Under the pieces are notes generated by a model. That model was not told the DNA's origin. It saw only the letters and a list, made by a program, of their open reading frames with translations, and made no database searches. Of a stretch of DNA of 64,000 bases, positions 20,981 to 63,400 are shown piece by piece. Made by a program: the position numbers and the translations under genes. The first letter of the stretch is position 1. The number at the start of each line of letters is the position of its first letter. This DNA is from Branchiostoma lanceolatum (Eukaryota > Chordata > Leptocardii > Amphioxiformes > Branchiostomatidae), in assembly GCF_035083965.1 (NCBI RefSeq), contig NC_089731.1, forward strand, positions 1,602,001-1,666,000, written 5' to 3'.

Positions 20981-23900
20981 GGACGATTTTGTCGGGGTGC
21001 AAACGATGTATGCGCTCCTGGCTGGAGTCCCGGAGGTTTTCACCAACCCTGTCAAGCCCAGGTGTGCGCCTTTGTTCCTCATCGTCAGGTGAGGCAGGCT
21101 CAGGTGAGTGATATCGTCTTCTCGTGAGCACAACGCCATATCGAATGTCGGACCTATGTCGCCCCCCTCCCCATCAGACGAGCGTGTTTTCTGTACACGT
21201 TAACCTCCTTGCACGTATCTAGTAGAATGGGAAATTCACAACAACATGATATGATTTGAAAGAGTTTGCTTTACTTCCAGTTATTTCTGAAACAGTATTG
21301 TATATTCAGGCATTAACAGTCTATTTTTCGCTTACATCATAAGGTATATGGATAGTCAATAAAGTTATTGGACTGTCACATGCATAATATGTTTGTATGA
21401 TCATTTGAACACCCAGTGAACCTACGCCCTTTTGTTTTCCAGAAAAAATATGAAGAACTAGCAATATGACAGTCGTGCTATTATCATTTACAAGTGGTAG
21501 AAAACAGAAACAGTACTACTACTAACTTATATTTTTTGAGTTAAAATGTAACTTGTTCGCCGCATCATTCATATTGACTCCTGTGCTGACTGACTCACTT
21601 AGTACTTATTCAAACATGTCTGTCCACCCCAGATCCCTCCAAGCCGACCCTGCCCACCCCTCCAGACTTCTTGGACCCGGCGGTCCAGTCCATTCTGGTG
21701 CAGCTGACGGGGGTGGACCTGGAGAAGGTGTTTCACCAGGTCCGGGCCAAAGTGGACCCTCCCACATACAAACTCATGACTGAGGAGCAGCTCAAGAAGG
21801 TCGGTGGTTCATTTCTTTTCAAGCAGTGAACAAATTTGAAAGGGATATCTAATATTAGCTATAGAGTGTAGCGGAAGATAAACCCGTCCATGGTTCTGAC
21901 TACGCATGTGCAGTGTCAAAGGTGAATGTCCCTGGCTTGTAAACAGTTCTCGTCTCGACATTGTCTAGATTTGCATAACAACTCCCCGACGGGCTTTGAC
22001 AACTTGCACATGCATAGTCAGAACCGTGAATGGGCTAATAGGAACTCTTGCAAAAATAGTGATCTTTGTCTGGATGACTCGCCCAAAATGATGAATAAAG
22101 AATCAAACAATCTTGTGGACTAACTGAAGTACTAAGCTAGTATTTAATACTGCCACACAGGGATCTGATAGCTTTATTGTGCAACAATTGATATTGTAAC
22201 TGATAATGATAGTTAAGTTAATTATTAACTGATAAGCTAAACAAGGTATTGTGCTCTTCTTTCAAGGAAACAAGGAGTATTGAATTTTTGTGTCTGAAAA
22301 TGAAACAGCAACACTCTGTTTTATGTAGTCTAGTTCCTAGAGACACATACTCAGCAGGTATTCTACCTAAGTAACAGTGCTAGACTAGAATGCTGTGGTG
22401 TTCTATTCAATCTAAAAGTACAGCTGAAACACCTGTAAACCATCTGCCCATTCTCCAGGCATATGATGAAACGGTCCAGCGAGCGCGGGAGAAGCTCCAG
22501 ATGCCGCCGGTTCTGCCCGAGAGGGCGCCGATTGACCCGACACCGATAGCGGAGAACCCGGAACTGCAGGGGCTGGAGACGTCCAACCTCGTCTTCACAG
22601 ACATCTCACAGAACATCCCTGACAGGGTGAGGGGGAAACACTGCATACATTACTGTTACGTCACTCTAAAGTATCCAAGATATTGTTTTTGGCTTGTCTG
22701 TGTGTCTGTATGTGGTTTTGTGATTACTTATTGTAATGATGCCGTACATCCTCACTTCCTCAGTGCTTTTTTGTGGGACTAGGAGAGGGTGGCAAAGCAA
22801 TATGGGCAAGGGGATGAAGTTTGCATCTCTGATTGCTCTGATGTTATGAGAGTAGTGAAGATACAATGTAGATTGCTATAGGAAAAAGCATACTGTACTC
22901 TCTTTTTGCAGATTTGACAAATCATGGATTGAGAGACAATATTCTAACCAAAGAAATAACTTTTTGAATGTGACATTTTCATCTTCTGTCTCTCAATGCA
23001 TTTGTATCATTCATCCAGGAAAGATTTATCGTGGTCCGGGAGCCAGACGGAGTTCTTCGCCGCGCGACGTGGGAGGAACGAGACCGGCTGCTGCAGGTTT
23101 ACTTCCCGAAGGAGGGGCGCAGGATCCGACCTCCGCCACTCTTCAACCAGGACCACATGGACGTAAGGAGCTTTCTTCTTTCTTTCCACCATCTACAAAA
23201 CAACCAGGGACACTCATTCAATCTTGAATCCACGGACATCCTAGACTGTGAACGCCATTGGTTCTGTAGGAACATCTTCACTGAATAGCTTTGAAGAACG
23301 GTTGCAGTCAGATGTGCAAAAGTTAGGTGTGACAGGCCGTTCAGTGTAATATAACTAGTTGCTGCCGCGCCGCGTGCCTGCAAAGCTGGTGTGTTACACC
23401 GAAGGGCGGTCATACAAGCTATAAAGATACAGGTTCAAACAGGGAGTTAGAGAAGCAATAATGAGAGAATGTACAATCCCACCCTCAATAGGGAAGGAGG
23501 TCTACGCGTCGAACTTTCAGGCACTAAGGATAATGCGTTGGATTCTACTACATGTAGAATGTATATGAACATGTGTAAGTGTGTCTGTATTCTCTCTCCT
23601 CCCCAGATTGTCCTGGAGGCAGATCGCCATGTGGACCTGCTGGATCTGTGCTGTATCCAGTTTGAACCGGACTCTCCAGACTTCATCAGGGTAACTTGCA
23701 CTGTTTTACCAGTTAACCTTCTCCCTGCTGCCTAACTCAAGACCAATAGTGCCCAATGGCTACTCCAGATTGCTAAAGGTTAAAGACACACAAACCCAAG
23801 TGTCAGAGCTATTTAGTAAAAATAAGTACATTGTGGTTCCCCCAACCTGCAAAACTGTCAGTTTTGGCATTGCACTGTCAAAACCTTCAGTCTTGATATT

Positions 23901-31125: not shown

Positions 31126-33697
31126 ATGGCTCGGCCCGTGTCCCGGCACGGCGGGAGGAAGCAGTACGGCAGGTCGCCGATGGCTCCCACGGGCAGCGAG
31201 GCGGGGGGAAACTTCATGTTCCCCGACTCGCCCTCCCCCAGTTACGGTGAGTCGTCACGGTGGTTGGAGCTGGAGTGGCCGGGAGGCTCGGGGGTGGAGG
31301 GGGTGTGAAGTACCGTACAGCAGGGCTGAGTACAGGACACGGGGCTGTTATACACGATAAGTGCTTCACACGGAAATGTCAAGGCAACTCCGCCGGATGT
31401 AATCCGTACTTCAAACTTCTTAACTCTTTCCCAAGATGATGGGGGTTTTCCTTTATCAAATTACACCAAAGGTTGTATAAGACGGTTGTTAAGGAACAGA
31501 ATAGATGTCCGCGATGTCTATTAAGACTTCAGATCGTCGGAAAACAAAAGAAAGTCGCGATCTTTGAAGTCAGTGCTCCAACAGCTGAGTGGCTTCCATA
31601 GTTGCCATGGCAACATAATCCATATCGCACCCTCCATTTTCCGTTAAATCACAAACGACATGGTGTAAGGGGTAACGGACCGGCAGGATAAGTATTGCAC
31701 ATGGTATTTGCTACATTATCAAGTTTAACTACAGCTACTGTATTTTACAAGGCCATTTTGATTCAAACAACGTTATAGCATTTTATGAAAATATTGTAAG
31801 TTTGAACTTTGATATGGGCAGTGAAAATTGTTACCATGCATATTCACAACATATCAATGTCATCCACATAAAATTCAGGACACTGTTATGCATAGCATAA
31901 ACTCTGTGTCTCCTTTGCTATAGTGCTGGAAACCTTTTTTTAGCATTGTTACTGATAAAAGAATTAAACTCAAGTGCATGTGTATGTATCATTTCTATTT
32001 TCGTGTGATACTGAAATGTCATACTTAACATGTCTAATTTTTATGAAATTTTTATGAAATTTGTCTTATAACATGTTCACTGCTACCTCTATATATGTTT
32101 GTCCTGCTCAAGACAAGTGCATGTTTATGTACCATATCAATGTTTTTTCTTCAATTTTTCATATCCCATATTCACTACTAGTATCTGTATGTTTGTCCCA
32201 TTCTCTAGGTGGTGAGTTTGTTCCAAGCCCCCCTCCCACAGAACGACCTTCCAGTCGGCGCAGGGGTCGTATCCACGACAACGCCGACCCCACCACCAGC
32301 CCCACAGCCACGCCTAACAACACCCCGGAGACAGGCCACGTCCGCAAGATGCGCCCAAGGTCAGCCAAAGGTCGTCCGCGATCGGCCAGAATGAGTCCGG
32401 AAATGTCAGGAAGTCCGACATCGGCGTCGCCTCCGATGCACGGGTCGCCAATCATGCGCCCGTCGTCAAGAGAGGATTCTGGGATAGACATCCTGGCTCT
32501 TAGTCCCCCAGCCAGGCCGACCTCTGCATTGTCAAGGTCAAACTTTGTTTTTGTTTTTCGCTAATTTTGTTTAGTTTAAGGATTACTGTATCATACCAAC
32601 ACTTACAATACAGATAACATTGTATCCTTTCGGATAATTGCTTTGGAAGTGGAATATTATTTGGTCTTGAACTTTCTCCATATACATGTATATCATAACA
32701 TATTCCTGAAAATCTTTGACCATCTTTTTGGCCAAGTTACATATGAATTCGGAATCAAAAGAGCACTTCAACAGCAAATAGGTTTATAACTGTGAAGAAA
32801 AAGGATTATTATTTATACGTGTTATTGAAGTCTTATTCCTTAACAGTAAGTTAAGACTACTTTTTAACCTTCTCCTTGCTGCCTGGCTAATGTCAATTTA
32901 GAGAAAGTTAATCAATGTGTAGAGAAAGGATTGTTTGGTGTTATTCAAACCTTAGTTGTTGAACAGAAGTATTTTGCTCCCCCCACAGATACCGAGTCCT
33001 ACCCTCCATCGGCCCCCGACCAGGGACTGCCTCAGAGGACGGCGGGGTCGACGGCATCGCACAGGGAATGGATCACATGACTCTAGCCAACCAATCAGGA
33101 CACTCCAGGGGGGAGCCACGGAAACGCCACAGGAAACGGTCCACGGAAGAGGAGACCTACCCACAATCCTCCTCTTCCCAACGGACCAATCAGAGCACAG
33201 AGGACCTGAGAAGGAAAAACAGGCACGAGGACAGACTTCAAGAGGAGCCAAAAACACACCACAGGCCACATCACAGAGGGGAGGGAAAAATGCCGGATGA
33301 AGATGACAGAACATTTCAGGACGAGCGTCGAGATGAAGAACCTGTACAGACTCCGGTACGACCGGTAAGCGCCACGTGGCTCGCTAGAATTCCCGTCCCT
33401 CGCGAACCCGGGGTCAACCAGGACAGGCTTCTGCTCGCGCTCAAGCTGCCCGGAGGTCAGAGGTTACAGCGGCACTTCCACATGAGCGACACGCTCGGCG
33501 GAATCCTGGCGTTCGCTCAGACTCAGACGGACCAGAAACTCGGAACGTGCGAGATCGCGGTCCAGGGGACGCCACAGAGGGTGTTTACCTCCTCCGACTT
33601 TAAAAAGACGATCGCTGAGTCGGAAATTCTAGATAAAACACTTCTGTACATCCAGGCTGATGAAGAGGAGGAGGAAGAGGATGAAGATGGGCTATAG
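31126..33697 (+). CDS. UBXN10: UBX-domain protein, UBXN10-like (3 exons, 385 aa)
   Basis: Exons 31126-31246, 32209-32536, 32989-33697; 1,158 nt with closing phases. The first in-frame ATG is at 31126 (MARPVSRHGG). Residues 1-280 are low-complexity: Pro/Ser/Arg-rich with SP and RP(R)SA motifs, then basic-acidic segments. The last ~85 residues form a UBX domain: RLLLALKLPGGQRLQRHFHMSDTL, a TCEIAVQGTPQRVF strand region and KTLLYIQ, then a poly-Glu tail. UBX domains bind the N domain of p97/VCP; UBXN10 in vertebrates is a p97 adaptor in ciliogenesis. The single C-terminal UBX domain without UBA, UAS or SEP domains points to UBXN10 rather than to other UBX families. Human UBXN10 is shorter (~280 aa), the extra length being the disordered N part. 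Confidence 0.8.
32864..32911 (+). mobile_element. Degenerate TTAACCTTCTCC MITE in UBXN10 intron 2
   Basis: TTAACCTTCTCCTTGCTGCC at the left end and AAAGTTAA at the right; the interior is shortened relative to other copies. Confidence 0.5.
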
Positions 33698-55590: not shown

Positions 55591-56490
55591 CACGATAACT
55601 CAAGAATGCCTGGATGGATTGTCTAAATATTTGATATGTGGGAAGGTCTTCCCAAGATCTCAAAATGACTAGATTTTGGGTCCTCTAGCTGCTTGCTATG
55701 GTACTGTGGTGGAACTTCCAGTTTTGATATCTCGTGTTCTGCACTGCTATTGTCATGATTTTATAGTGGCAGATAACTCTTGTTGGTATATGGGAAAGGT
55801 AAAAGGCATGACTAGTACTATCTAATAGTATTCTTCATTGACTCTTGAAGCATTTCACACCTTTGACAACTTTTAGACGTTTACACATCAACGGATTGAT
55901 TAGTCCATAAACGCAACTGTCAAAAATGCACGTTTATTAAAATACTATTTTTTCAACTCAAACGTTTGGCTCGGAACTACTCAACATCTAAGAATTTGGT
56001 TTGCATTCTTTATTGGAAGGCTGCTGCGTACGTGATTTTATTCTTCATCCGTATGGCCCTGAACTGCTTTATGTACTAGAATGTAATAGACCCATCTATA
56101 GAAAAAAAAATGCTATTTAGGCCATAACGTCATATGATAATGAATATGCATGCACTCCAACCCACATCTAAACGGGTTTCTCTCAGGTGCTCATTTAAGG
56201 ATATTTCTGCCGTCAAGAAGACCACCGGGCTGTAAAAAGTGCTCGAAGACGCTCTTGGAGGATCGAAACACCAAGGAATGGGCCAAACCTGCGGACACCT
56301 GTGCGTATCCGGGTCAGTGAAATTACCCACCCGTATGTAGAGGAGACCAGTATTGCAAGAGAAATTGGACTTAATCGGGGCATGTACAATGAAAAAGACA
56401 ATTCTGTTTTTCTTCATCGACTCTTGCCAACGTAGCTGTAAGAGAATAAGTTGAAGATGTAGCCCAAGATTACAACTGGCTTAACTCTGA
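54760..56490. other. Intergenic between PLEKHM2 and the LRR-Ig gene
   Basis: Contains the (GT)n-bearing dispersed repeat at 55538-55735 (see 13196-13425). No exon recognised. Promoter elements of the LRR-Ig gene are not evident. Confidence 0.4.
55538..55735 (+). repeat. (GT)n-bearing dispersed repeat, copy 2
   Basis: (GT)n at 55538-55588, then AACTCAAGAATGCCTGGATG, GGGAAGGTCTTCCC and GGTACTGTGGTGGAACTTCC, paralleling 13196-13425. Confidence 0.6.
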
Positions 56491-56491
56491 A

Positions 56492-59392
56492 ATGACAACC
56501 ACAAGGCGTGGAAGCGTCTTCGCTCTAGTGTTATTCGTGGCGACGTGGAATGGAACAGGTTGCACCGCCGTTCAGTCAAACCTAGATTGTTGCCAGAGCA
56601 ATCCCGGATCCAATGTCGCATTACTGACATGTTGGAGATCCTGTTATTTCCGCAACATCCCCGCGCCGTTGCCGCCTAATTTGAAACAATTGTTGATACG
56701 GCAACAGAATATCACAAAGATCAAAGCAGGGGATTTTCCCCGTCGTGATATTTTGGAGAGTCTGTCTATCTGGGACAGTAACGTGGCGGTGCTACAACCT
56801 GGGGCCTTTGATGGCTTGCCTTCTATGACAGCACTAGACCTTCGTCTGAACAAGATCAGTCGACTGGAGTCAGAGACTTTTAAAGGACTGGCCCTGCTTG
56901 GTTATATCAACTTGGATGATAACGAGATACATCACATCGACAGAAAGGCTTTTGCCGGGCTCGTCAGACTCAAAACACTTGGCCTGAATAGGAACTGCCT
57001 TTCTAGCGTTCCCAGAGGGATTCGCTCGACTCTTAACGTTGAACTTCAACTGACTGAGAACCCCTTGGCGTCAATAGGAGATGTCGACGAGCTACGCCAC
57101 ATCTCCTCTCTAAGGTGGCCCGTAGCAATGATGCAGATGCAGTGCGACTGCAAACTGAGGGAAATGAAGAGATTTCTTCTGGAAAATCAACACCTGCGAT
57201 GGCACATCTGGTGCGTAGTGGGGGATATCAGTAGGGGAATCAGGTATGTAGCTTGGGAGGATCTCAGGTGCTCCTCACCTGACGTGTCCCTTACGTTAAA
57301 CAACGGGGCCGCCACAGGTGAGGTCTCCTTCACCTGCCGTACAGACTGCAAGGAAGGTCTGGCGTTCGCGTGGATCGCACCAAGTGGAGACCACAGACCA
57401 CCGAGCTTCGAGTACTCCATGGACTACAGGCACGTGAGCGACTCGTCTTGCAAAGGCTCGCCCGTCACTACCTGGGAAACGAGGAGAATGTGCTACTCCG
57501 TGTTGGACATCCCTGCGGTTGGTAGAGACGCAGATGGCAAGTACACGTGTCAGGTGACAGCTGACCATACAGACAATGCGAGCGTATCCACCGTGCTGAC
57601 CCTTAGAAGCGGTACTGGGAAAGGTACCAGAGGATACAGCCCGGCGCTCACCGTCAATAGTGCCCCCGAGAACATGACCAGAGCGGCGGCGGAGCTCTCC
57701 GTCAGTAATGGCACTGAGAAAATGACCAGAGCGTCAAGCCCGGAGCTCCAGCCGACAGACGTAGCCGTCACACCGCCAACAAGGGATAGAGGTGTCGGAA
57801 CGGAGACCACAAATCGCCCGGGGATTGGATTGTCCACAGCTCGGCTTATTCTTGCGGGTCTGGGTTTCTGTGGATTTTTCCTTATGTTCGTAGTGATCGC
57901 CGCCTGTGTGAGCAGGTGCAAAGCAGGTGGTGCAGAAGGACACCACGACACCGATGACCGGTCTTCTGATGATCCCACAAGAGGACAATACGAAAATGAC
58001 GACCAGTTTTCGGACATGGACGAAGCAAGAAGCAGACAATATGAGAACGATGACCAGTTTTCAGACGCAGGAGGATCCAGGGAAAGACATTACGAGAACG
58101 ATGACCAGTTTTCGGACACGGACGAAGCTAGAAGCAGACATTACGAGAACGACAACCAGTTTTCGGACACGGACGAAGCAAGAAGCAGACCATACGAGAA
58201 TGACGACCAGTTTTCGGACACGGACGGAGCTAGAGGCAGACACTACGAAAACGATGACCAGTTCTCAGACGCAGGAGGAGCCAGAGGTGGTCACTACGAG
58301 AACGATGACCAGTTTTCAGACTCAGAAGAAGCAAAAGGACGACACTACGAAAACGACGACCAATTCTCCGATGACGATGTGAGGAAAGCCCCTGGCAAGC
58401 CGACCAGTGGTGGACCACGGAAGACATCTTTCACTGCTAAAGCCAAAAGGAGAGGTCGTCGTCACATCAAGAGAGGCTTGGTCAAAACAAGAGCAATGTC
58501 AATGTCAAACAACAAAACAACCAGGGCGGTAACATGCATTGTTGCTATTCACGCTGAGGCACAAGCAGGTGATCACTATGACAACGAAAGGAAAACCTCT
58601 AGACAAAACCTCGACGACAGGAACTCTACGGGAACTTCGCCCAGTGGGGGAACTGATGACAACAATCAGACAGCTGGGCACTATGACAACGACAAGAACT
58701 TCAAAGGTTTGGCGTCAAACACCGCCATGAGAACTGATGACGACAGCGACTCTCATCATGACTACATGTCGTTACCTCAGAACAGAGCGGCAGGACGGGG
58801 GACTGGACATGGATCCGGAGAAGAGGATGTCAAAGATGAAGGCGACGATCCTGTCTCCACGTCTGCAAGTGCCGTTGAGGGATCAGAGCATGGGTATGTG
58901 AAACTCCCTGGGACGGAAAATGTCGACGCTAAGTCTGACCACACATTTGTGAAATTTCCTGGGACGGAAGATGCTGACCACATTTATATGATACTTCCCG
59001 GGACAGAAAATGCCGGAGATAACTCTGACCACACCTATGTGACATTTCCTGATACGGAAAATGCCGACGACAACTCTGATCACACTTATGCGACCTTCCC
59101 TGACTCAAAGGATGCTGAAGGACAGCAAATGAAAACAGAACAAAATGACGGACATGTTCTAGGTCCAGTCCCCGGTTTACCTGACGAACAGGACGACCCT
59201 GGCAACCCTGATCACGTTTATTTGACGTTTCCTGACAGTGAAACTGACAATGCTGGAGAACAGCAAGCAGAAAGGAATGCGGAAGATGTGCAAGTTTCAG
59301 ACCGAGCGCCCGCAGTGTCCGAATTAAATCTAAACTCTGATCATGTCGATGTGACGGTTCACGACAGAAGAACCACACGGGATGAGCAGTGA
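56492..59392 (+). CDS. LRR-Ig transmembrane receptor with repetitive tyrosine tail (966 aa, intronless)
   Basis: Signal peptide (residues ~1-26, FALVLFVATWNGTG). A Cys-containing N cap (CCQSNPG, CWRSC) leads into LRRs at ~60-180 (MTALDLRLNKISRLES, LGYINLDDNEIHHIDR, LKTLGLNRNCLSSVP). LRR C cap ~216-262 (CDCKLREMKRFLL). One Ig domain ~263-370 ending DADGKYTCQVTA. Thr/Ser-rich stem, then a membrane helix ~448-472 (LAGLGFCGFFLMFVVIAAC). The ~490-residue tail has eight 17-residue repeats of YENDDQFSD (~499-640), two YDN sites (~694, ~730) and eight units of the type DHxYxx(L/F)P (~755-955). LRR plus Ig ectodomains serve in adhesion, neuronal or immune recognition. pYxN is the GRB2 SH2 consensus, so phosphotyrosine signalling is likely (inference). 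It has no introns, unlike its neighbours. The ligand is unknown. Confidence 0.85.
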   Translation: MTTTRRGSVFALVLFVATWNGTGCTAVQSNLDCCQSNPGSNVALLTCWRSCYFRNIPAPLPPNLKQLLIRQQNITKIKAGDFPRRDILESLSIWDSNVAVLQPGAFDGLPSMTALDLRLNKISRLESETFKGLALLGYINLDDNEIHHIDRKAFAGLVRLKTLGLNRNCLSSVPRGIRSTLNVELQLTENPLASIGDVDELRHISSLRWPVAMMQMQCDCKLREMKRFLLENQHLRWHIWCVVGDISRGIRYVAWEDLRCSSPDVSLTLNNGAATGEVSFTCRTDCKEGLAFAWIAPSGDHRPPSFEYSMDYRHVSDSSCKGSPVTTWETRRMCYSVLDIPAVGRDADGKYTCQVTADHTDNASVSTVLTLRSGTGKGTRGYSPALTVNSAPENMTRAAAELSVSNGTEKMTRASSPELQPTDVAVTPPTRDRGVGTETTNRPGIGLSTARLILAGLGFCGFFLMFVVIAACVSRCKAGGAEGHHDTDDRSSDDPTRGQYENDDQFSDMDEARSRQYENDDQFSDAGGSRERHYENDDQFSDTDEARSRHYENDNQFSDTDEARSRPYENDDQFSDTDGARGRHYENDDQFSDAGGARGGHYENDDQFSDSEEAKGRHYENDDQFSDDDVRKAPGKPTSGGPRKTSFTAKAKRRGRRHIKRGLVKTRAMSMSNNKTTRAVTCIVAIHAEAQAGDHYDNERKTSRQNLDDRNSTGTSPSGGTDDNNQTAGHYDNDKNFKGLASNTAMRTDDDSDSHHDYMSLPQNRAAGRGTGHGSGEEDVKDEGDDPVSTSASAVEGSEHGYVKLPGTENVDAKSDHTFVKFPGTEDADHIYMILPGTENAGDNSDHTYVTFPDTENADDNSDHTYATFPDSKDAEGQQMKTEQNDGHVLGPVPGLPDEQDDPGNPDHVYLTFPDSETDNAGEQQAERNAEDVQVSDRAPAVSELNLNSDHVDVTVHDRRTTRDEQ
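57986..58380 (+). repeat. In-frame 51-bp minisatellite coding YENDDQFSD repeats
   Basis: Eight units of 17 codons with only scattered changes; each keeps Tyr-Glu-Asn and DQFSD, while the linker alternates between (T/M)DEARSR, AGG(S/A)R and SEEAKGR. DNA identity between units is high, so copy number may vary between alleles. Confidence 0.9.
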
Positions 59393-60400: not shown

Positions 60401-63400
60401 TCAAATCTCATCAGCGCCTACGTACAACACATTATCAGTGTCACCCTCCTGACTTACGCCCCCGAATTCCCCTGCACTTTCGTACAAGACGTTCTCAACT
60501 TCTCCCGATTCTTTCTTAACCGGTTTCGCGTAAAGATCCTCCACATTTCGTGCCCTTTTTGCCTTGTTCTTATCAGGTTTACTGTACATGGCTTCCAGCC
60601 TATCCGAGTCTGACGTCACGTTAGGCTGACCAATGGCGGAGTAGCTACAGGTTGCCCCTGACAACGCCAGCTGGACCCCGCCCTCCTCCTCCCTGATAGA
60701 GTCGTACGTCGGCTCCGGGGAGCGATCAGCTGTGACGTCAGGAGGTGGTGCGCTAGATGGGACTGACGTTGGGCTGGAAATTAAACACTTTTGCTTATTT
60801 TCTTACTGTATAAATTAGTATTTTAATTTCTAGATATCAAATACATGGTATTTTACGTTCACGTGAGTCGAGATTCCAGAATAGGATTGTTCAGCTATAG
60901 CCGATGCTGTAGGGCTTATGATCATGGTAAATAGTGACCAACGGAGGCCATATATGACTTGGACATCATGGCTATGACGTCCCCAAAATACATCACATAA
61001 ACACAAGAAATTCTTAAACCATGGGTGATTCTGTCGCTAAATGCAACTGAAGCAGCAGCGTCTATACTATTAAGCACATTGTCCAAATAAACTACCTTCT
61101 CCTCCGTTTCATCACTATGACAACCGTTGCTATGGCAGCCGCCAGAAGTACAACCCCGCCTGCTGCAGCTCCGATGGCGATAGGCAGTGTGTTGTTGTTG
61201 TTATGGGGCGCTTCTGGAGTGATAACTAATAGAACTCGGTTATACACATGCAGAAGGGATTGTATCTCTAAGCGTGGTTTCCTACAAACTGAAAAGATGC
61301 CCATCATTATTGCATTTCGTATCTCCATTGTATACAGTCACACGGATCAGTTGCGCTTTCGAATTGCACACGACGACGTACCTATATATGAGCTCGATCC
61401 TTTTTTTTGGCAATAAATTTGGCCAAATCTCTGGATAAACACTTACTTCTTCGTCCAACGCCTCCGTCCGTGGGAACCGAAGGTAATGTTTGACGTGGAA
61501 CTCGACCTTTTGCTGTCGTTTGTGCGATGGTTTTCACCGTAAACATGGTAATCATCGTCGCTTTAGTTGTTCTTCTAGTTGATTGCACAGGGCGGGTTGT
61601 TGAATGGGTGGGGATGCCACCCGTGTCTGAGACTGCAAAAAGTTTATGACATCATTTCCGTGTCAAAATATTGTATTAAAACGTACCCTAAAATAGCGAA
61701 AATAAGTCTACAATATACGTATTTCACTATTGAAACGATATCGTTTTCATGTCTATGATATCAGCTCGGGACAAAAATACCGTTATATTCCGTTTTACGC
61801 AACAAAGTCCACTGATGATCCTGCATATACAATTCAAACTCTACTTCTGGATAAATCACGGAGATTACTTCCGAACGTTTCGAGTGACATCCATCACTCT
61901 TCTTCAGCGTCACTTGTATGAGTATTGTTTACCTGGATGTTTAACCTTCATTAATGCACGCTTACTTTCATAGCACATGTAAATCATCGATGGACATTAC
62001 ATGGCATCATCATGAACTGCATGTGTCTCTACTCTATTCTCCAAGCAGAGGCTTCGATCGAGAGGGGTAGTTTTGTCCGGGATTTTAACGTTAACGTTCC
62101 TCTCCTCTCAGTGAGAGGGATTTTAACGTTCCTCTCCTCTCAGTGAGAGGGATTTTAACGTTCCTCTCCTCTCAGTGAGAGGAGAGGAACGTTAAAATCC
62201 CGGACAAAACTACCCCTCTCGATCGAAGCCTCTGCTTGGAGAATGTCTCTACTCATTCATTCCGACGATGACGATATGCTTAAGATGATGATATCCAGCT
62301 TACCAATAATTAAAGTGCCGGTCTGTTGACGACCAACCACTGCGTTAGAAACGGGCGGTACATCTGTTTGCCTGGTAACCGATTTTGTAATTGTAGAACT
62401 TGTGACAGGTTGAGATGTGGAGGCTTTGTATGTAGCAGGAAGAGCTGTGGAAATTACTCTGCTGGGTGGTGATGCCTCTGCGTTTGAAATAATCAAAAAT
62501 TGAATATAAAATGACAATATATATTAGCCTGGGTTTGCCATCCTGTCTAATTTATACAGAGGCTTATGTACTCTCCCGATTGGAAATCTCTATTTTCTCA
62601 TAATGAGCTCCTAAAGCTGTTGACGACTTACTAAAAAACCTTATACCTATTGACGACGAGAAAATTTTGCGATTAACGTATAACAGACGTGGAAAATAAA
62701 TGACAATAAGGGGTGGAATTATGTCACACTAATCAAGTTATGGCATTACGTATAAAAAAATATGAATGCGAGTTGCGTACATAAATTTTGCACTATACAA
62801 TCAGTTTGCCAGCTTCTATGAATTAAAGATATGTGAGAAGTTCGTCATAGTTACCGATTTGGCAGATGTAAGAAACACTCAAAGTGCACTCAGTGGCAAG
62901 GGACCCAATTAAATCATTCCTGCCCAACAGTGACCCGCTACAGACCCGCTTGTGTCGACAAAAGTTTCTGACATGCTCCGTAATGTCCTGGGAACGACAT
63001 GCTCTACAGTTCACACTGTCGGGCTGACGTCTACAACAAGAAGCTTGCCCGTAAATTGCGGACGTGACGACAATGGTCTGGGAAGGAGTCCCGTCACATC
63101 TGAGTGTCCCTGTACCGGTCAGCGGGCAAAATCGTTCTGCATACGAACATAATGTAATACAGTATATAATAAGTTTATTGCAAATTCCTGCCCGAAGGCT
63201 GATTGCAAATAATATAGATAAAAGACCATGGTACCGGGGAATGCGGAAGTATCTGATTAATTAGTACGAGATGGAACAAAACAAAACAAAAAACCTTCAC
63301 TTCACAAGGCTTTCAAAGATACTTCATGCACCTCACTGCATCAATGATCATGTAAACGGTTATGCATGTGATGATTGATAATCTGCCCGTATCAACTGTG

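Follow-up and report, generated by a model that had tools for sequence, protein, structure and literature searches.

Tandem YEN motifs in the tail of a putative amphioxus LRR receptor as candidate GRB2 docking sites

Known GRB2 scaffolds and the putative amphioxus receptor

In T cells, recognition and multivalent GRB2 scaffolding are divided between separate proteins, the receptor and LAT. LAT, LAB and LAX are not known to have a sizeable ligand-binding ectodomain or a tandem array, EGFR carries its own kinase on the same protein, and FRS2 is not known to be a receptor or a tandem array. Repeated SH2-docking tyrosines are also found in the substrate domain of p130Cas and in the EPIYA region of CagA, where the copy number is variable; these tyrosines lie in YxxP or EPIYA motifs and serve SH2 domains of other kinds, and neither protein is known as an LRR receptor.

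According to the accessible parts of the published reports, LAT, LAB and LAX are membrane-anchored tails with several GRB2 sites (three in LAT, three in LAB, and five among the ten tyrosines of LAX), and valency governs clustering in a model of LAT with GRB2-SOS1-GRB2, in which gelation occurs if LAT is trivalent and does not occur if it is bivalent (PMC3291652). In the case of EGFR, the scaffold is the receptor's own phosphorylated tail, which together with GRB2 alone condenses on supported membranes via GRB2-GRB2 contacts (PMC9181613). FRS2 has several GRB2 sites, including the two pYEN sites pYENI and pYENL (PMC3514216). Two LRR proteins of amphioxus have been described in a related context. 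BbLcLRR is an LRR receptor with one transmembrane segment and a tail that is phosphorylated by Lck, the phosphorylated tyrosines found by mutation including HDY655 and HDY690; it is described as an inhibitory receptor of 699 amino acids with a WSC domain and ITIM-like sites, and the available part of its description mentions no Ig domain (PMC8211107). FrLRR was found in Grb2 immunoprecipitates and its phagocytosis is inhibited by Grb2 knockdown, but it has a folate-receptor domain and a predicted GPI anchor (PMC10199209).

Scaffolds with multiple YxN sites for GRB2 are already known (LAT, LAX, FRS2, EGFR), and it is such valency, in an extreme form, on an LRR receptor that is new in the locus described here, which lies in a 64-kb window of Branchiostoma lanceolatum DNA (the whole stretch that was analysed). 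As in LAT, LAB and LAX, three or more YxN sites lie behind a transmembrane segment, whereas the minimal ectodomain of that group is replaced by about 450 residues, leucine-rich repeats included; the receptor may work like a scaffold of this kind, but it is not a member of the class. It resembles EGFR in that the putative docking sites lie on the receptor's own tail, and differs in that Pfam detects only LRR families, a kinase domain not being among them, and in that its sites are near-identical repeats. Among the matches listed in our literature search, judged by title and the start of the abstract, there was no receptor of similar build with repeated GRB2 or SH2 docking sites. The strings YENDDQ, ENDDQFSD, NDDQFSD and HYENDD were not found in the literature searched, outside which most subscription papers lie.

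Architecture of the receptor frame and its tail

The forward strand is open over 980 codons from stop to stop (56450-59392), and an ATG at 56492 starts an uninterrupted frame of 966 amino acids (56492-59392, +), which has the layout of a type I receptor with a long tail. The first approximately 25 residues read by eye as a signal peptide; a 21-residue hydropathy scan did not flag this region above 1.6. Leucine-rich repeats occupy residues 57-195 (56660-57076, +; Pfam LRR_8, E 4.9e-35, four stretches), and the PDB matches include LGR4, TLR3, LRIG1 and VLR chains among the 60 of 239 matches listed. A cysteine pattern of the type CDC...C...C, recognised by eye and without a separate HMM match, marks an LRR C-terminal cap (57138-57280, +). 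The segment behind it (57281-57625, +) carries the signature DADGKYTCQV and is probably an Ig domain. Searched alone, it matched Pfam I-set with E 0.002 and 18.6 bits, under the cut-off of 23.7, and gave weak PDB matches (best E 0.015), while the Pfam scan of the whole protein returned no Ig family up to E 0.1. AlphaFold models calculated without an alignment were too poor for use, the mean pLDDT being 30.5 in the ectodomain model and 44.7 in that of the Ig segment, and Foldseek with the poor Ig-segment model gave a best E of 1.0. From the preliminary description of the gene as an LRR-Ig receptor, the LRR part is therefore well founded, whereas the Ig part is likely, yet sub-threshold.

Residues 452-474 form the transmembrane segment (57845-57913, +), with a Kyte-Doolittle mean of 2.63 over residues 453-473 that is the maximum of the protein and belongs to a single dominant hydrophobic segment. 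Since the 484-residue tail lies C-terminal to this segment and behind an LRR ectodomain, it should be cytoplasmic, as had been supposed, and the case for this topology is strong. The membrane-proximal stalk contains a 48-bp (16-residue) duplication (57642-57733; 1.9 copies by Tandem Repeats Finder), each copy of which has an N-x-T site (NMT and NGT, by eye). The tail had no match up to E 10 in either PDB or Pfam, and tblastn with tail and ectodomain found only the receptor itself in the 64-kb window, the best other place having E 0.17.

The tail contains eight 51-bp units that encode the core YENDDQFSD with a period of 17 residues (57986-58372, +). The YEN tyrosines are residues 500, 517, 534, 551, 568, 585, 602 and 619, with codons beginning at 57989 for the first through 58346 for the eighth, and all seven intervals between them measure 17 residues. 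Tandem Repeats Finder independently placed a repeat at 57984-58362 (period 51, 7.4 copies, 79% matches; also detected at period 153). Motif positions and repeat detection thus confirm the earlier proposal of eight tandem YEN sites encoded by a 51-bp minisatellite on an open receptor frame; the range proposed for it, 57986-58380, is right to a few bases, the last core ending at 58372. The two YDN sites expected in the same tail were located at Y696 (58577-58585, +) and Y731 (58682-58690, +), the latter in a degenerate unit, HYDNDKNF. Ten YxN motifs in the tail compare with a mean of 1.03 in 10,000 residue shuffles, none of which reached ten, although this count is non-independent evidence because the copies arose by duplication, and the codon test given below is the better measure.

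Between the last YEN unit and the first YDN site lies a segment (58379-58558, +; residues 630-689) that may be a 180-bp phase-0 GT-AG intron, or else an in-frame insert that is basic if translated. It would encode 17 Lys or Arg and 1 Asp or Glu in 60 residues, against 35 and 109, respectively, in the other 424 residues of the tail (Fisher p 3e-5 and 2e-6). The segment starts with GTGAGG, ends with AG and is in phase 0 at both ends, and when it is left out the YDN of Y696 falls exactly 17 residues past the last YEN, as a ninth unit in register. Against an intron stand the weak acceptor (GAG), the six phase-0 AG ends to choose from between 58380 and 58720, and the lack of a stop in the reading frame, though both other frames have stops. 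The features in favour are suggestive of an intron. The eight YEN units are unaffected by this question.

Selection on the core and the proposed GRB2 docking

Among the eight copies of the core YENDDQFSD, which come from a single allele, nine distinct changes are silent and one, in copy 4, replaces an amino acid (D to N at +4), with 3.67 silent sites against 23.3 replacement sites (binomial p 1.4e-7, for changes that are not wholly independent, as copies of one array exchange parts). A version restricted to transitions, with 9 silent and 17 replacement targets, gave p 4.9e-4. In the core, 1, 0 and 8 of the nine sites at codon positions one, two and three, respectively, are variable; the corresponding figures for the spacer are 4, 6 and 7 of eight, counted in copies 1 to 7 because the spacer of copy 8 has diverged. 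Changes in the spacer were 9.67 silent and 19.33 replacement, which indicates mild constraint (p 0.04), and core and spacer differ with a Fisher p of 0.003 when the spacer counts are rounded to 10 and 19. Tyrosine and asparagine are unchanged in all eight copies. The silent excess in the core, together with the far looser spacer, argues for maintenance of the motif at the protein level, beyond that of a DNA repeat, and the core is under protein-level purifying selection. We infer that for much of its past this was a translated frame and that the nine core residues matter. A codon test within one gene shows at the protein level that a nine-residue unit is important, and it leads to a precise peptide, HYENDDQFSDTDEA.

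This pattern bears directly on the idea of a selectively neutral coding minisatellite that is homogenised by unequal exchange and whose tyrosines are functionless. The unit subtypes are interspersed within the array (units 1, 3, 4 and 5 share 44-48 of 51 bases, and units 2, 6 and 7 share 40-41), as repeat turnover predicts, but homogenisation cannot spare third positions, where nearly all core variation lies. Gene conversion and DNA-level constraint were dismissed on the same ground, so that neutral turnover or gene conversion is ruled out as the cause of core identity by the codon-position pattern; provided that the frame is translated, neutrality is largely refuted, and we regard it as very improbable. 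The tail might also serve as an acidic disordered spacer or bind cations, the tyrosine being incidental, and its 76 Asp and 34 Glu in 484 residues would suit such a role. However, Y, N, Q and F are constant, and it is the acids of the spacer that vary (D-E versus G-G types), which makes this explanation improbable.

Two further readings accept that the core is functional and change its partner or its context. It is possible, though doubtful, that YENDDQFSD is a longer composite motif, recognised by GRB2 together with a second reader or by that other reader alone. Such a reader could be an SH2 protein with an extended footprint that is specific to the lineage; alternatively, the pYEN site may be joined to a phosphoserine (F-S-D-x-D/E, of the casein-kinase-2 type) or to a trafficking motif. 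The Asp at +3 and the residues Q, F, S and D at +5 to +8 are constant in all eight copies despite varying third positions, and the degenerate copy HYDNDKNF retains the D at +3 and the F at +6. On the other hand, Y and N are equally unchanged, both YDN copies retain Y-D-N while the rest of the motif is lost wholly in one and mostly in the other, and the spacing rule of casein-kinase-2 sites fails in the two units of the A-G-G type. We consider it rather unlikely that the receptor is a dual one, in which the proximal array recruits GRB2 and distal HxYxx-type tyrosines are inhibitory and ITIM-like, as in amphioxus BbLcLRR. The distal part of the tail contains seven DHxYxxFP-type units (58883-59374, +), which were picked by pattern; the tyrosine is lost in two of them, where F and D take its place, and YxxF/L is also a type of endocytic signal, which offers an alternative for these motifs. 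Histidine occupies -2 in all six tail tyrosines outside YxN motifs, as it does in two of the three tyrosines that mutation identified in BbLcLRR, and BbLcLRR is phosphorylated by Lck and associates with SHIP1, and less with SHP1/2, in Jurkat cells (PMC8211107, in its accessible part). The ITIM consensus used for BbLcLRR (I/V/LxYxxL/V), however, wants I, V or L at -2, and none of the six tyrosines has it. We also considered whether the proximal (YENDDQFSDTDEA) and distal (YVTFPDTENA) 17-residue units share an origin, and rejected this, as 921 of 2000 shuffles reached the score of their local alignment.

In the reading that we prefer, the protein is a type I LRR-Ig receptor that carries its own platform for multivalent GRB2 docking; from sequence features, we assign to this reading a probability of about 0.55. 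The GRB2 SH2 domain depends strongly on N at +2, with and without which the predicted affinities lie two to three orders of magnitude apart, as reported in the part of PMC12521615 that was accessible, and P at +3 is not tolerated in the GRB2 family, whose sites include pYENI and pYENL of FRS2 (PMC3514216, likewise). In the amphioxus tail, N occupies +2 in all ten YEN and YDN sites, and P is absent from +3, which is D in all eight YEN sites and E and D in the two YDN sites. The preliminary description had taken pY-x-N as the binding consensus of the GRB2 SH2 domain, and pYEN with D at +3 obeys the published rule (PMC3514216), so that binding is predicted. It is this fit of pY-E-N-D to the GRB2-family SH2 rule that makes the multivalent GRB2 platform the best reading. 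Constraint on the core reaches as far as +8 and exceeds the known need of the GRB2 SH2 domain, which makes another or an additional reader possible.

It had further been suggested that the surrounding Asp and Glu residues favour tyrosine kinases, and this is true only in part. Acidic residues flank the YEN tyrosine at +1, +3, +4 (7 of 8), +8, -6 (5 of 8) and -7 (6 of 8), but positions -1 to -4 are acidic in only 1 of 32 cases, with R or K at -4 in seven and R at -2 in six of the eight sites. Each of the eight sites has one or two K or R within seven residues of the tyrosine, none at +1 to +3, and Q, H or P at -1. As far as the accessible text of the report goes, K or R within seven residues severely hinders ZAP-70, whose rule asks for D at -1; LAT, which is phosphorylated by ZAP-70 or Syk, has R at -2 of Y191 and is still a slow ZAP-70 substrate at this site; and Lck tolerates upstream basic residues, but not K or R at +1 to +3, and favours bulky hydrophobic residues at -1 (PMC5089863). 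The YEN sites largely break the rule of the ZAP-70/Syk type, as they have K or R within seven residues and no D at -1, and they also lack the bulky hydrophobic residue at -1. The arginines just before the tyrosine disfavour kinases of the Syk/ZAP-70 type, and a Src-family-like kinase seems likelier than a Syk-like one, the residue at -1 fitting neither rule fully.

The predicted course from phosphorylation through GRB2 binding and clustering to output builds on the observed anatomy of the tail and on the observed selection on its core. A ligand on the LRR ectodomain would place the receptor near an active tyrosine kinase, for which the Src family is likelier than the Syk/ZAP-70 type; this kinase would phosphorylate several of the eight sites (nine or ten if the YDN sites are counted). 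One GRB2-family SH2 domain could dock per pY-E/D-N, and the gap of 17 residues (about 6 nm if extended) would let adjacent sites fill simultaneously. Docked GRB2 might then crosslink tails via SOS or GRB2-GRB2 contacts, and the crosslinking would lead to receptor clustering and to a local rise in Ras or actin signalling. Eight to ten sites would place one receptor over the LAT-type gelation threshold even if it were partly phosphorylated. More tentatively, one may think of a single-chain innate receptor that brings its own LAT-like condensation scaffold with up to ten GRB2 sites, lies above the trivalent threshold even when mostly empty, can change its valency in steps of 17 residues, and has a nine-residue core that would imply a reader whose footprint exceeds that of ordinary GRB2; we hold this extended proposal to be doubtful as a whole. 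A receptor that fuses recognition with a GRB2 scaffold and whose valency is laid down in a minisatellite would, if this is true, represent a natural experiment on the number of docking sites needed for clustering, and would also probe whether valency evolves by gain and loss of units.

Other features of the window

The window has a GC content of 42.7%, and searches of all 64 kb with Rfam (gathering scores) and ARAGORN (bacterial code) gave no match. On the reverse strand, in the neighbourhood of the receptor gene, an exon-like frame at 60401-60802 has a sub-threshold match to the SUEL lectin domain (E 0.00045), and a separate open frame at 62823-63260 contains six tyrosines, including those in MYSKP and LYAKP; the two are possibly parts of one putative lectin receptor, whose SH2 docking tail would differ from that of the LRR receptor. 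A single open frame of 243 amino acids (1890-2621, -) ends in a hydrophobic segment followed by a short acidic tail with YVF, and had no Pfam match up to E 0.1. The forward strand further contains a UBX domain match at 32963-33697 (E 1e-8) and, at 22384-22782, an exon of the mitochondrial ribosomal protein S22 (MRPS22), with a Pfam match of E 2.2e-13 and matches to mS22 chains in PDB. At 62091-62182, Tandem Repeats Finder detected a perfect 32-bp tandem repeat of 2.9 copies, and the 100% matches between its copies suggest a very recent expansion.
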